In this document: piece after piece, positions 11,526 to 18,967 of the stretch | Layout of the letters: every line of letters begins with the position of its first letter | Numbering within the stretch: the first letter of the stretch is position 1 | NCBI GenBank assembly: GCA_030753015.1 | Contig: JASMDC010000048.1 | Location: forward strand, 1 to 26,177 | DNA from: Candidatus Undinarchaeales archaeon | Lineage (GTDB): Archaea; SpSt-1190; JASMDC01 | Reading direction: 5' to 3' | Length of the DNA: 26,177 nucleotides | Made by a program: the position numbers and the translations under genes | The notes under the pieces: generated by a model | Database searches by the model: none | Seen by the model: the letters and a program-made list of their open reading frames with translations, nothing else | What the model was told of the DNA's origin: nothing

Positions 11526-11726
11526 ATGGTACTGTCGAAGAAGGACCAGGAGATGATCGAGCGTCAGAACCGCGGTGTGTTCGAGCGCCGGCTCAACATG
11601 CGAAAGAAGAACGCCCTCGTGTGCGCCCAGTGCGGGAAGACCTTCCCACTTGGTCGGAAGGCCGCGTTCAACAACCACATCAAGGGCTGCCGGGGGAACA
11701 AGGGAATCCCCGAGCTGGAGATATGA
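11526..11726 (+). CDS. Small C2HC zinc-finger protein
   Basis: The 66-residue, highly basic protein carries one finger: Cys33-x2-Cys36-x14-His51-x3-Cys55 (CAQCGKTF followed by FNNHIKGC). Small single-finger proteins are common in archaea and may bind nucleic acid or protein; the target cannot be told from sequence. GAGGAGG at 11511-11517 is a strong ribosome binding site for ATG 11526. The stop lies 12 bp from the end of the convergent radical-SAM gene. Confidence 0.8.
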   Translation: MVLSKKDQEMIERQNRGVFERRLNMRKKNALVCAQCGKTFPLGRKAAFNNHIKGCRGNKGIPELEI

Positions 11727-11738
11727 GTGCTGCCCCTC

Positions 11739-13031
11739 CTAGAGATGGAGGCGCTTGTACGGGATGACCACCTGGAGCTCCTCGCCCACGAGATCGCTCA
11801 CCAGCAGGTTCACCGTCGGACCGTGGTTGACGCCGGGAGCGTAGAGGACCTGGCGGGGCTTGATCCCTTCCGCGGGCTGTGAGAGGTCCACCTCGGCACG
11901 GAAGAACCCGAGCCAGTTGCCGTCCAGCTCCGCTTCCTCGGCGAGCAGCCCGTCGCCCCTGAGGATCTTCACTAGCTCCACGAACTCGTGACGTTTCTCT
12001 CCGTCGTTCTTGAGATCATCCCTGGTGTACTCGTGACGCTGGCCATCGTAGGTCAGAGAGATGGTCTCACCGGCATCGCCGTCGAGCACCGTGAGCCAAT
12101 CGGTGACCGCGGTCGTGCTCGCGACCTGTCCATTGGCCACGTCCTTGGAAGCCCGGCCCATGACGAGGTAGGGCGACACCCGGAAGCCGATGTTCCGGTC
12201 GGGGAGCGTTGCGGACATGTTCCCGGTGCCGTTCATGTCATCGTCCTCCAACCGTCCGAGCAGATATCCCTTCTCGTCGTTGGAGAGACGATCGGTGGAG
12301 ATGTTGTCCAGCACGTCCCGGAACAGGGAGACCGTGTCCTTCGTGCGCTGGTTGGTGTTCCGGTCCAGGGGGACGGTCGAGGGATTTTCCTGGTCGGCGA
12401 AGTACATCATGTCCATGTAGACATCAGTGTCCGTTGACGCACCGTCGATCGCCGCCTCGACGACCTTGGCCAGGAGCTTCGCGTCCTGTTCCTGCCCCAG
12501 CTTGCGGTACTGCATCGTCTGGATTGACATGGAGACTGCGAACTTCCCGGAATAACCTGCGGCCTGCTCGAGCTGGTCCAGGCCGTGTTGGTCCGCGACG
12601 ACCTCGTCGCCGTCGAGCTGGTAGTGAACGCCGGACGTGATGATCTTCGAGCGCTTTCCGGTGGCATCGTACACCGACTTCGTGAAGTCGCCGATGCCCT
12701 CGCCGGTCTCGTACCGGAGGTGACCGGGCTCGCTGTCCCTGAAGGTCTCGACCAGCACGCCCTCGTAGGTGTTCCCCTGCACGGGGATCCCCGTGTACGC
12801 CGATGCCTGGCCCAACGCCTCCATGAACTTCTCGGTCTGATCCCAGCGCGCGGTGGCGATCTTCGGGAGCGATGATGCGTGACATCCGGGGCACCGCTGC
12901 CGGCAGCCGCGCTGCGGGTAGACACCGTGGAGATTTCCAACAAGAGAGGAAAGTTCATCGTCCGAGAACTCCTTGAACACCTCATGGGCCACTGCGTACT
13001 CGTCGCCGGCACCCTCCTCGAGCTCATACAC
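11739..13031 (-). CDS. Radical-SAM-like protein, third gene of operon
   Basis: The 430-residue acidic protein carries CRQRCPGC at 43-50, a CX3CX2C motif of the kind that binds the [4Fe-4S] cluster in radical SAM enzymes. It follows a strand-like NLHGVYPQRG as in the first beta strand of those barrels. These are the only cysteines in the protein, so no SPASM or other auxiliary cluster is present. Later segments such as KFAVSMSIQTM and DVYMDMMYFAD are compatible with barrel strands. Start GTG 13031 overlaps the upstream gene's stop by 8 bp and has AGGAGG at 13041-13046. I do not recognise a named subfamily, and the reaction is unknown. Operon partners are a nucleoside-phosphorylase-fold protein and a zincin. 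Confidence 0.75.
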   Translation of the reverse strand: MYELEEGAGDEYAVAHEVFKEFSDDELSSLVGNLHGVYPQRGCRQRCPGCHASSLPKIATARWDQTEKFMEALGQASAYTGIPVQGNTYEGVLVETFRDSEPGHLRYETGEGIGDFTKSVYDATGKRSKIITSGVHYQLDGDEVVADQHGLDQLEQAAGYSGKFAVSMSIQTMQYRKLGQEQDAKLLAKVVEAAIDGASTDTDVYMDMMYFADQENPSTVPLDRNTNQRTKDTVSLFRDVLDNISTDRLSNDEKGYLLGRLEDDDMNGTGNMSATLPDRNIGFRVSPYLVMGRASKDVANGQVASTTAVTDWLTVLDGDAGETISLTYDGQRHEYTRDDLKNDGEKRHEFVELVKILRGDGLLAEEAELDGNWLGFFRAEVDLSQPAEGIKPRQVLYAPGVNHGPTVNLLVSDLVGEELQVVIPYKRLHL

Positions 13032-14037
13032 GGCTCGTATCCTCCTGTGCTCCGTTCCTGTGGTGGACGGACTTGACGGCGATGCGCATCAGCTTGGTGG
13101 CCGTACGCACACCGGTTGTGTACTTGGATACGTTGCCTGAGCTCATCCGCTCGCCCTTGAGCTCCGGCTGTGCGAGGTGGTCGTCCACGACCCACATGAG
13201 GCCAGTGGCACCGCCACCGTAGCTGTTCGCGACAGCGCTTACGGCCGCGAGCTCCATCTCGACGGCTTCGTAGCCCGCGTCAACGAGTTCTGTGAGCCGG
13301 GCGGGAGTCTCCTCCCGGACCCAGGAGCAGGTGTCGTAGATGGTGGCTCCCTTGAGCGTGATATCCTGTGCGTCCGCGGACGCGAGGAGCGCGTCGTTGA
13401 GCTCTTCGCTCACCGACGTTGTGGAATTGTATATCTCTGGGATGGGGGAGCGTGTCCCGACCTCGCCCGTAGCATAGATGATGTCACCGGAGTCGAGCCC
13501 GTCGGTAAGACCGCCCACGTTGCCGATGTAAGTGAAGTTGCGGGCCCCGCCGCGGCAGAGGGCATCGGTTAGCATGGCCGCATGCTCCTGGCCCATGGGC
13601 GCCGATACGATGCCCATGGTCGTGCCCTTGTAGGAGATTATCTTGTGGGTGTCCGAAAAGGATTTCTCCACCTTCGCGCCGTAGGGGACGGTGAAGGCGT
13701 CACCGTAGACCATTATGTAGTCGGTGGGAAGATCGATGTCGTCCAGTGAGGGCGCCTCGCGGGAGGGCCCCTTGGGGAGGATGGAGGTCAGTGCGTCCAC
13801 GGCATCGAAGCAGGCGTCCTGGTAGCGGGGCGGGACGTGCCGGGCGATGCCGTTGAGCGCACGGGTGAGCAATGAGGTCGTCGGTGTTGAACTGCCGTAC
13901 AAGCCTTGGGAAGTGACGTACCGGGCGACGGCCGAGTCCCGTGCCTCGGGATCGGCGATGGTCTCGAAGTAGCCCGCATGAGCTGGATCGATAGCTCCGG
14001 CCTCATCGGTCACTTCAGGTAGCTCGTACATCGTCAT
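13024..14037 (-). CDS. Nucleoside phosphorylase superfamily protein, operon gene 2
   Basis: The 337-residue product has about 100 N-terminal residues of unknown fold, then a PNP/UDP-phosphorylase-like domain. Family signatures are MGIVSAPMGQEHAAML (phosphate/base-binding strand and helix), ARNFTYIGNVGGLTDGL, the VEMELAAVSAVA segment with the Met261-Glu262 ribose-binding pair, and an acidic VVDDH at about 283-287. Relatives cleave nucleosides such as uridine, inosine, 5'-methylthioadenosine or 5'-deoxyadenosine. Beside a radical SAM protein, which would release 5'-deoxyadenosine, a role in clearing that by-product is attractive but unproven. The start overlaps the zincin stop by ATGA (14034-14037), and translation is probably coupled. 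Confidence 0.8.
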   Translation of the reverse strand: MTMYELPEVTDEAGAIDPAHAGYFETIADPEARDSAVARYVTSQGLYGSSTPTTSLLTRALNGIARHVPPRYQDACFDAVDALTSILPKGPSREAPSLDDIDLPTDYIMVYGDAFTVPYGAKVEKSFSDTHKIISYKGTTMGIVSAPMGQEHAAMLTDALCRGGARNFTYIGNVGGLTDGLDSGDIIYATGEVGTRSPIPEIYNSTTSVSEELNDALLASADAQDITLKGATIYDTCSWVREETPARLTELVDAGYEAVEMELAAVSAVANSYGGGATGLMWVVDDHLAQPELKGERMSSGNVSKYTTGVRTATKLMRIAVKSVHHRNGAQEDTSRV

Positions 14038-14873
14038 CCACTCCCAGCGGAGCTCTCCGCTGTTGCGTCGTTCGTGTGTGCCATCAGGTGAGGGAGCTCG
14101 ACCTGGAGGTCGTACTGTCCGCCCAAGGTGAACATGATCCGGTCATTACCGGACTTGTGCATGAACTTCTCGAGGAGGTAGGGCTTCGCCCGGTAGCGGC
14201 TGTCGCGTTCGATCTCGTCCATACGCGAGCCGAACCACACTTTCCTGAACGTCTCTCCCTTGAGACGCGCGTCCACGAAGGTGAGGATGAACTCATCGTC
14301 GAACCCGAACTCGTCTCTGAGATAGGTGGCGATCCGGGTCTCTGACCAGCCCTCGTCCTTCCGTAGCTTTATGGCGAGGGCGTCTGTGGTCTGTTTCATC
14401 CGCTGGTCGTGGACCCTCCTTGCGATATCGGGTCGCTCGTTCGCATCCATTAGCTGGTAGGCCACATCCATCGCCACGAGCTCCTCGAGCCACTCCGAGC
14501 AATCGTACAACGCCGCGTGGGTGCCCTCGTGGGCAAGGATGTAGTCAACGGTGGCTGCGTCAGCAGCGTGCTCGGTCTTCACGTACACCTCGGTCTCGAA
14601 CCTCCCCTTCCGCGGATTGGCGTACTTCGTGTACCCGTCCGGGTCGATGTCGGCGAAGTCGAGGTTGTTGGTGGAATAGGTGTAGTGGTGGCCGAAGTGG
14701 GCATTGACCAGGGAGAACACGCGTTCACCCTCGCTCCTGAGCTCGTGGGTCGACATGATCGCGTCGGTGCACTCGGGAGAGGCCCGGTACTGCTGGATGG
14801 CGTACCGGAGGTCGCAGACGATCTCATCGGTCGTGATGAAGCCCGTCCCGATTGAGTCGGCAAGGTCCGGCAT
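14034..14873 (-). CDS. HEXXH zincin-like metallopeptidase, operon gene 1
   Basis: The 279-residue protein carries HEGTH at 115-119, an HEXXH zinc-site motif within ILAHEGTHAAL. A downstream acidic stretch (SEWLEELVAMD, Glu127/130/131) could supply the third zinc ligand and the helix of a gluzincin-like active site. A Tyr/Asn/Asp-rich N-terminal part precedes it. There is no signal peptide or membrane segment, so it is probably cytoplasmic. I do not recognise a characterised peptidase family. It opens the three-gene operon and has a palindromic leader (14874-14899) between promoter and start. Confidence 0.75.
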   Translation of the reverse strand: MPDLADSIGTGFITTDEIVCDLRYAIQQYRASPECTDAIMSTHELRSEGERVFSLVNAHFGHHYTYSTNNLDFADIDPDGYTKYANPRKGRFETEVYVKTEHAADAATVDYILAHEGTHAALYDCSEWLEELVAMDVAYQLMDANERPDIARRVHDQRMKQTTDALAIKLRKDEGWSETRIATYLRDEFGFDDEFILTFVDARLKGETFRKVWFGSRMDEIERDSRYRAKPYLLEKFMHKSGNDRIMFTLGGQYDLQVELPHLMAHTNDATAESSAGSG

Positions 14874-14899
14874 GAGTAATCACTCGCGAGTGGTGACTC
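14874..14899. promoter_or_regulatory. 26-bp palindrome in operon leader
   Basis: The two 13-base halves match at 11 of 13 positions, with a perfect 12-bp core CACTCGCGAGTG (14881-14892). It fills the space between the predicted transcription start (about 14895) and ATG 14873. It could be a dimeric repressor operator or an mRNA hairpin masking the GTGAT ribosome site. Confidence 0.6.
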
Positions 14900-14916: not shown

Positions 14917-14924
14917 TATATATA
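14917..14924 (-). promoter_or_regulatory. TATA box of the zincin/phosphorylase/radical-SAM operon
   Basis: TATATATA, one of the clearest TATA boxes here, predicts transcription at about 14895 on the minus strand. Confidence 0.6.
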
Positions 14925-14968: not shown

Positions 14969-15097
14969 CTAGAACGCACCCATGAGATATAGGAGGCCTG
15001 CTGACAGGAGAACGGCAAGAAGGAACATCCCCACGATGGAACGATAGGCCGAGATGGGGAAACCCATGAGCATCTGCTCCTCGTGTTCATCCCCCAT
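14969..15097 (-). CDS. Single-helix membrane miniprotein (42 aa)
   Basis: From ATG 15097 the product is an acidic head (MGDEHEEQMLMG) followed by one strong membrane helix (SIVGMFLLAVLLSAGLLYLMG). The frame stays open up to 15193, but the TATA box at 15124-15131 predicts transcription at about 15101, so the short near-leaderless form is favoured. No family is recognised. It lies just upstream of the 14873 operon in the same direction but has its own promoter, and its stop lies 45 bp before the operon's TATA box. Confidence 0.55.
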   Translation of the reverse strand: MGDEHEEQMLMGFPISAYRSIVGMFLLAVLLSAGLLYLMGAF

Positions 15098-15123
15098 TCT
15101 AAAGAACGTAGAGTCCCTAACGG

Positions 15124-15131
15124 CTTTAAGG
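15124..15131 (-). promoter_or_regulatory. TATA box of the 42-aa miniprotein
   Basis: CCTTAAAG on the minus strand is centred 30 nt before ATG 15097. Confidence 0.45.
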
Positions 15132-15208
15132 TTTTGCTTGGTGGAGCGCGCGTCAAGCCTAATCAAATGGGGATGGATCCGTTTGTCGTGCATTCAGGCT
15201 TGCACCAG

Positions 15209-15418
15209 CTACATGGGCGGGAGATTGCCCACTCCGCCCGACGGGGCGCAGTCGTCCAGGCACTTACGCAGCTTCCGCATGCAATCCGAGTATATCTCGG
15301 TAGGCTCCCCCATGCTGTCGTATTTGAGCGCGCAGCCCTTACCACAGATGGAGCTGGAGTTCGCCGGGGGGCCGGGCGCCCGGCTTGCTGCGAGGGATTC
15401 CCCCCTCACGGTCGTCAC
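15209..15418 (-). CDS. Possible Cys-rich small protein
   Basis: This is an open frame of up to 69 codons from GTG 15418. The last 45 residues look protein-like and carry five cysteines: C-x3-C-x16-C-x6-C-x3-C (CGKGC, later DCMRKLRKCLDDC). Third codon positions are mostly G or C, as in real genes here. Against it: no clear ribosome site or TATA at the right distance, and the first 24 residues are low complexity. A shorter form starting at an internal ATG (15313) would lose the first Cys pair. Treat as a candidate only. Confidence 0.4.
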   Translation of the reverse strand: MTTVRGESLAASRAPGPPANSSSICGKGCALKYDSMGEPTEIYSDCMRKLRKCLDDCAPSGGVGNLPPM

Positions 15419-17870: not shown

Positions 17871-18398
17871 TCACTTTTCCTTGATGAGCCCAAGCTCCTT
17901 CTTCATCGAGTAATGGCGCACCCAGTCGCCGCCAGGAACCTGGGGTAGGTCGTCCACCTTTTTCCCGGGCATGACGTACATGCCGACGTTCTCCAGTTCC
18001 CTCTCTCCCGTGTCCACGGTGAACTTCTGCCGCTTGTAGCCGTAGTCACGTTCCATTCGGTCGAGGGTGCTGGCGGCCTGTTTGTTATGGACCTCGTACA
18101 GCTCTACTACGATGCTGTCCTCGGGATCGCCGGTCTTGTAGGCGATGGGGAACTTCCCGACGTCGCGCATGGCGTAGCCGGAGAGCCGCCCGTCGCCCAG
18201 GAAGGTGGCGTTCTGGTCCAGTTCGAACGCTTCGTGGTTGTACTCACCCGCCCTGAGGGTGCCGTAGATCAGCATGAGGTCCCCGGACGGCTCGAAGCCC
18301 TCGATCTCCCGCTGCTCGCCCCACTCTATCGACGCCATCTCAGGACGGCGGTACGAGTCGACTTTGGAAAGCGCGTGGTCGAGGGGCCCGTCATACAT
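17871..18398 (-). CDS. Gamma-glutamylcyclotransferase-like protein, copy 2
   Basis: The 175-residue protein has the GGCT/AIG2 fold signature YGTLRAGEYN (45-54) and LDRMERDYGYKR with Glu116 as the probable catalytic acid. GGCT enzymes cyclise the gamma-glutamyl group of gamma-glutamyl peptides or amines to 5-oxoproline. It is paralogous to the 18467-18967 product but longer at both ends. A TATA box at 18434-18441 shows a separate promoter. The substrate is not readable from sequence; the GCS2-like ligase just upstream suggests a gamma-glutamyl compound. Confidence 0.82.
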   Translation of the reverse strand: MYDGPLDHALSKVDSYRRPEMASIEWGEQREIEGFEPSGDLMLIYGTLRAGEYNHEAFELDQNATFLGDGRLSGYAMRDVGKFPIAYKTGDPEDSIVVELYEVHNKQAASTLDRMERDYGYKRQKFTVDTGERELENVGMYVMPGKKVDDLPQVPGGDWVRHYSMKKELGLIKEK

Positions 18399-18433
18399 GG
18401 TTCGTCACTTGTACGTGGTGACCGATAGGGGTG

Positions 18434-18441
18434 TATAAAAA
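18434..18441 (-). promoter_or_regulatory. TATA box of GGCT copy 2
   Basis: TTTTTATA on the minus strand predicts transcription at about 18411, 13 nt before ATG 18398. Confidence 0.55.
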
Positions 18442-18466
18442 GGTTGCCTTGAGGAGCGCGTCGAGC

Positions 18467-18967
18467 TCAACCTCGAGACGAAAGGCACTGTTTCCGGGAA
18501 AAACTCACCCAGTCACCGAAGGGCACGGACGGACATCCCTCGAGCCGTCCTTCGGACATGATGTAGATGGTGCCGGTGACGGTCATACTGTCCACCTCGA
18601 CGGTCACCTCCCTGCGATCGTACCCGGCCCCGCTCTCTAAGGCATCGATGCGGTCGTACACCGTGCGGTCGTGGACGCGGTAGGCCTCGACGACGATGCC
18701 ATCATTAGTGCTGTCCGAGGCATGAACGGCAGGGCAGTGTCCCAGCGAGCGCATGGCCCACCCGGAAAGTCGTACCGTACCCAGATAGGTCGCTCCATCT
18801 TCCAGACCACATAGGCGGTAGTTGTGCTCGCCGCGGCGGAGGGTGCCGTAGACGATCAGCACAGAACTGTCACCCGCTCCTTCATCCGCCGTCCCCATGG
18901 CGTCAGGAGAGGGATCCCGTCCTTTTAGCTGTTTGGGATGTTCCGTACCCGTTCGGTTTCCCTTCAT
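18467..18967 (-). CDS. Gamma-glutamylcyclotransferase-like protein, copy 1
   Basis: The 166-residue protein shows YGTLRRGEHN (40-49), a G-x-VRLSGWAM segment and IDALESGAGYDRR with Glu111 in the catalytic position of the GGCT family. The first 34 residues are polar and low complexity; an internal ATG at residue 24 could be the real start. ATG 18967 overlaps the stop of the GCS2-like gene (ATGA), so the two are almost certainly translated from one mRNA. This direct coupling of a predicted gamma-glutamyl ligase to a gamma-glutamyl cyclotransferase is the best functional clue. Confidence 0.82.
   Translation of the reverse strand: MKGNRTGTEHPKQLKGRDPSPDAMGTADEGAGDSSVLIVYGTLRRGEHNYRLCGLEDGATYLGTVRLSGWAMRSLGHCPAVHASDSTNDGIVVEAYRVHDRTVYDRIDALESGAGYDRREVTVEVDSMTVTGTIYIMSEGRLEGCPSVPFGDWVSFSRKQCLSSRG

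Follow-up and report, generated by a model that had tools for sequence, protein, structure and literature searches.

Radical SAM enzymes paired with PNP-fold enzymes

In menaquinone synthesis MqnE (aminofutalosine synthase) carries out an adenosylation, after which the hydrolytic MqnB (futalosine hydrolase) cuts off the base; the former is a radical SAM enzyme and the latter has the PNP fold. A comparable pair is found in hopanoid synthesis, where HpnH (adenosylhopane synthase) adds a 5'-deoxyadenosyl radical and HpnG takes off the adenine (PMC12583986). 5'-Deoxyadenosine is also an inhibitor of radical SAM enzymes, and nucleosidases or phosphorylases clear it away (PMC8102628).

The archaeal operon described here consists of three genes, numbered 1 to 3 in their order on the minus strand, which code for a zincin-like protein, a PNP-fold protein and a candidate radical SAM enzyme (Table 1). 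It resembles HpnH/HpnG in combining the last two, but differs in adding a zincin, in being archaeal and in reaching no HpnH or HpnG model: gene 2 scores E 1.5e-5 and 24.7 bits on the HpnG model TIGR03468, under its 187-bit cut-off, and gene 3 matches no HpnH model in Pfam or NCBIfam. The order of reactions proposed here, radical SAM adenosylation and then hydrolytic base removal by a PNP-fold enzyme, is that of MqnE and MqnB. Gene 3 has no match to MqnE in NCBIfam or Pfam.

Organization of the operon

The window, i.e. the whole stretch of DNA that was analysed, is an entire 26-kb contig (C60) of an archaeal genome bin of 3.85 Mb in 117 contigs. Of this genome, about 0.9 Mb was examined in the form of separate stretches. 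The neighbours of the operon are ordinary chromosomal genes, coding for argininosuccinate synthase and lyase, a dihydrouridine synthase, a DRG-type GTPase, a diadenylate cyclase, an aldehyde ferredoxin oxidoreductase and a tRNA-Arg. The contig also carries a tandem pair of gamma-glutamyl cyclotransferase-like (GGACT) genes, the first of which starts with MYDG. The nine other genomes compared from the assigned phylum measure 0.6-1.1 Mb. The bin has 84 Radical_SAM matches and 5% contamination; either the genome is exceptionally large for its phylum or the bin is partly mixed.

Table 1. Positions of the operon, its control elements and nearby features in the window
Feature	Position	Strand	Remarks
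Gene 1 (zincin-like)	14034-14873	-	279 aa, HEXXH protein
Gene 2 (PNP-fold)	13024-14037	-	337 aa, 100-residue N-terminal extension
Gene 3 (candidate radical SAM)	11739-13031	-	430 aa, CX3CX2C
TATA box TATATATA	14917-14924	-	43 bp upstream of gene 1 start codon
Near-perfect palindrome GAGTAATCACTCGCGAGTGGTGACTC, 26 bp	14874-14899	.	abuts gene 1 ATG
MYEL, gene 2	14020-14031	-	second ATG, two codons past the first
MYEL, gene 3	13020-13031	-	GTG start
CX3CX2C codons (Cys43 to Cys50), gene 3	12882-12905	-	by position arithmetic
Small ORF, 69 aa, five cysteines	15209-15418	-	upstream of operon; putative
Small ORF, 74 aa, C-terminal hydrophobic/transmembrane end	14969-15193	-	upstream of operon; putative
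Small convergent ORF	~11526-11735	+	directly downstream of gene 3; found by eye
GGACT-like gene pair	17871-18967	-	tandem

The earlier note had reported three genes overlapping by 4 and 8 bp, and its coordinates, strand and overlaps are exact. Genes 1 and 2 share the 4 bp ATGA and genes 2 and 3 share 8 bp, which implies translational coupling. The GC content of the three genes at each codon position is like that of the housekeeping neighbours. Gene 1 is preceded by a single archaeal TATA box and a single palindrome. The palindrome has 11 of its 13 pairs matched, with the core CACTCGCGAGTG, and no other palindrome of this length in the window is better (0.15 expected in shuffles). It sits over the expected start site and this suggests that it is operator-like. 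Its core is absent from the other independent loci examined in the genome.

Gene status is not supported for either of the small upstream ORFs of Table 1; the 69-aa ORF has an atypical second-position GC of 0.59. The product of the convergent ORF downstream seems to be a zinc-finger-like peptide (CAQCGK...HIKGC).

The PNP-fold protein

The fold of the gene 2 product is certain from its sequence. It matches Pfam PNP_UDP_1 (PF01048) with an E of 1.8e-14 (54.1 bits vs a cut-off of 25.1), which is beyond chance and confirms that the set includes a PNP-fold protein, as had been claimed. The closest solved structures are DeoD-type purine nucleoside phosphorylases. An alignment with E. coli DeoD extends over 154 columns with 26% identity and shows that Met261, Glu262, Asp285 and Arg297 are kept as the equivalents of DeoD Met180, Glu181, Asp204 and Arg217, together with the whole EME motif (Glu179-Met180-Glu181). 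According to PMC3434127, the Asp204 equivalent is catalytic and is approached by the Arg217 equivalent, and Arg87 contacts the sugar.

Gene 2 differs from DeoD in its N-terminal extension and in the residue at the position of Arg87, in the ribose/phosphate site, which is replaced by Tyr170. The corresponding residue is Tyr173 in the paralogue and Asn in the MTA/SAH nucleosidase (MTAN, Pfs), an enzyme known to remove 5'-deoxyadenosine; the profile comparison of MTAN with gene 2 covers only 21 columns. For the DeoD phosphate residues Arg24 and Arg43 the alignment with gene 2 is unreliable. Because Arg87 is lost, gene 2 is predicted to be a hydrolytic nucleosidase, which is more likely than a phosphorylase, the label it had been given earlier. 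Two ordinary PNP-family proteins of the genome retain the arginine (IIRLGTCG, FIRVGTAG), which argues that gene 2 is not merely another household phosphorylase. Its scores are below the NCBIfam DeoD cut-offs (29.1 bits vs 230 for PRK05819; 19.6 vs 232 for deoD). A likeness between the N-terminal extension and small helical proteins on contig C23 (E 0.49; hhalign P 3e-4) is suggestive only.

The candidate radical SAM enzyme

Gene 3 had been described as a radical-SAM-like protein with a CX3CX2C motif. The motif is present at Cys43-47-50; membership of the class is probable. There are no further cysteines in the protein, and three cysteines placed randomly in 430 residues would give this spacing with p ~3e-5. 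The motif is followed, in order, by SEP100, TSG132 and GRA292. Of the shuffles in which the Cys motif was kept, 0.24% have SEP and then TSG, as do 10 of 29 radical SAM proteins from the genome; the pattern was selected after the gene 3 sequence had been seen.

The match to Pfam Radical_SAM (PF04055) is sub-threshold (E 0.076, 13.6 bits vs a cut-off of 29.5) and confined to residues 38-77. Profile comparison gave results no better than those for shuffles with the Cys motif kept, and there was no signal past the motif. In a single-sequence structure model with a pLDDT of 40, strands alternate with helices; the model matches TIM barrels generically, at background scores (Z <=6.7). The Foldseek/VIA matches of the gene 1 and gene 3 models were all below a useful score and were set aside.

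The HEXXH protein

The HEXXH motif of gene 1 occupies residues 115-119 (H115, E116, H119). By itself such a motif turns up in 3% of shuffles of the protein. A 55%-identical paralogue (P0004, contig C51) retains it together with the remainder of the sequence. Downstream lies WLEELVA, which looks similar to the gluzincin third-ligand motif WLxEGLA and whose Glu131 is a plausible third zinc ligand. Gene 1 shares HEXXH with gluzincin-type metallopeptidases, but has no family match: none was found in Pfam, even at E 10, or among the NCBIfam, PHROG and PADLOC families. A predicted structure with a pLDDT of 44 gave no structural match and is uninformative. Thus the HEXXH protein of the earlier note stands, with its motif conserved in the paralogue, and can be called a zincin by motif only.

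Contigs C20 and C71 (L134:9119-9937 and L179:6843-7694) encode two HEXXH proteins that are related to one another, have an EGxA motif and match Peptidase_M13 and eCIS_core of Pfam weakly. Their likeness to gene 1 is confined to VDYxLAHExxHA (23 columns, hhalign P 2e-4, probability 46%), and they are possible distant relatives.

Distribution and paralogues

HMM searches found no relative of genes 1 and 3 in 393 other archaeal genomes, and only generic PNP similarity to gene 2 elsewhere in 394 archaeal genomes. Two weak zincin-like matches in the 393 genomes (E ~0.002) were short, one of them stop-ridden, and were dismissed as chance. Phages, plasmids and viral contigs yielded no relatives beyond two generic PNP-like phage matches (E 5e-3 and 8e-3), which gives no support to a mobile origin. 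Scans of 84,980 genomes with short exact patterns, by which distant relatives may be missed, gave no confirmed match, and the PADLOC defence models gave none for the operon at E 1. The three-gene set is absent from all libraries and collections searched, in agreement with the earlier remark that it was not a recognised one.

Within the genome, genes 1 and 2 have paralogues that stand apart from each other. The zincin paralogue has neither a PNP nor a radical SAM neighbour. The gene 2 paralogue (P0005, contig C25) is about 50% identical and has no radical SAM gene next to it, which suggests that this nucleosidase family needs none. The separate contexts suggest that partners have been exchanged between paralogues. 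None of the 84 Radical_SAM matches in the genome adjoins a PNP-family match, and the pairing of genes 2 and 3 thus appears to be specific. A second setting of this PNP subfamily is a same-strand run on C25 (L009:6839-10551), in which a protein without assigned family, a nucleotidyltransferase and a PHP phosphoesterase are followed by the paralogue of gene 2.

A shared N-terminal motif

Gene 2 starts with M-T-M-Y-E-L and gene 3 with M-Y-E-L, while gene 1 (MPDLAD) lacks the motif. M-Y-[DE]-[LIM] is common to genes 2 and 3 and at least 13 mostly unrelated proteins of the genome. A DNA pattern for M-Y-[DE]-[LIM]-[DE], which also admits Phe and from which gene 2 deviates at the fifth residue, occurs 17 times in the genome with ATG only, vs 2 in a reversed control. 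About 13 of these 17 matches mark genuine gene starts, and the proteins concerned are mostly unrelated. When GTG is included the counts become 26 vs 3 in the genome and 125 vs 113 over 60 relatives (summed by hand), most GTG matches being internal or due to chance. In an unbiased sample of 618 genes, Y[DE][LIM][DE] lies near 3 starts where 1.1 are expected; this is weak evidence alone, and would put the genome-wide total at perhaps 15 to 25.

Proteins with the motif are encoded on contigs C20, C23, C25, C29, C30, C37, C40, C47, C52, C57, C71, C73 and C106, and include a zincin, a nitrilase-like protein, glycine-zipper membrane proteins, a PNP and large helical-repeat proteins. Four tandem proteins of 474-563 aa on contig C29 (L170:820-7200, minus strand) share the N-terminal module YDLDLDGAYGxADxAxGYxQxEDLS and also contain helical repeats (VDRYEDTGGQTGAEVV) and a hydrophobic stretch rich in glycine. 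Small membrane proteins encoded on C23, C57, C73 and C106 have a module like it.

A DNA-level promoter element is an unlikely explanation of the motif, as the upstream sequences differ among the genes. This difference points to selection on the peptide, and the motif is possibly a lineage-specific tag. A more far-reaching and rather doubtful suggestion places the operon in a lineage-specific set of 15 or more mostly unrelated proteins, in which the motif, as a rule with [DE] after it, would be a sorting or assembly signal into one place or particle hosting new radical SAM and nucleosidase chemistry.

Proposed pathway and alternatives

The genes, their overlaps and the PNP fold with its catalytic residues are established. 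Beyond these, a single transcript would give the zincin-like protein, the PNP-fold nucleosidase and the radical SAM enzyme. Gene 3 would cleave SAM to a 5'-deoxyadenosyl radical, and would either add this radical to a substrate or release 5'-deoxyadenosine. Gene 2, which may share that substrate with gene 3, would then cut the N-glycosidic bond of the adenosyl product, probably with water instead of phosphate, leaving adenine and a ribosylated product or 5-deoxyribose. The zincin-like protein may process or control a protein partner in the pathway. The variants in which 5'-deoxyadenosine is cleared and in which the product is processed are not separable by sequence. This sequence of a radical SAM step and hydrolytic adenine removal, with a zincin alongside, is adopted tentatively, as a possible rather than a probable account. 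The idea that the PNP-fold enzyme acts on the radical SAM product had been put forward before; the link is the best available reading, whereas the phosphorylase in it gives way to a likelier nucleosidase.

Gene 3 might not be a radical SAM enzyme at all: its three cysteines could be ligands of zinc or of another metal, and the operon might be something else, for example a lineage-specific module for stress or conflict in which the PNP-fold protein is the effector. The sub-threshold Pfam score, the low-confidence model and the lack of homologues in the other archaeal genomes searched would fit this. However, the exact CX3CX2C spacing followed by SEP, TSG and GRA, the predominance of TIM barrels among the matches of even a poor model, and the lack of a PADLOC match make it unlikely. 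It is less likely again that the three genes have no common pathway and are lineage-specific neighbours merely co-expressed: the paralogues of genes 1 and 2 are indeed located separately with other neighbours, but three consecutive genes with such overlaps and a single promoter region speak for a joint function.

Radical SAM enzymes and proteases are commonly paired in peptide maturation. Were that the case here, gene 3 would modify a peptide or protein, the zincin would trim it and the nucleosidase would only clear 5'-deoxyadenosine. The five-cysteine ORF and the ORF with a transmembrane end just upstream of the operon could be cited in favour, but neither is supported as a gene, gene 3 lacks extra cysteines for auxiliary clusters and no precursor-recognition family was matched in Pfam or NCBIfam, so that maturation is improbable. 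Equally improbable is a larger salvage or modification route in which nucleotides or a modified nucleoside are the substrates of all three genes. A nucleotidyltransferase and a PHP phosphoesterase precede the PNP paralogue, and a carbon-nitrogen hydrolase and HAD proteins bear the same N-terminal M-Y-[DE]-[LIM], as such a route might lead one to expect. Yet the zincin has no obvious place in it, and gene 3 matches no known nucleoside-modifying radical SAM family in Pfam or NCBIfam.

If the tentatively adopted pathway is right, the operon would be a further natural case of radical SAM adenosyl chemistry coupled to adenine removal, this time archaeal and with a zincin of its own, and one matched by neither of the known pairs, hopanoid and futalosine. 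If the suggestion concerning the N-terminal motif is right, the motif, which is enriched in only this genome among the 61 compared, would be a new protein-sorting code.
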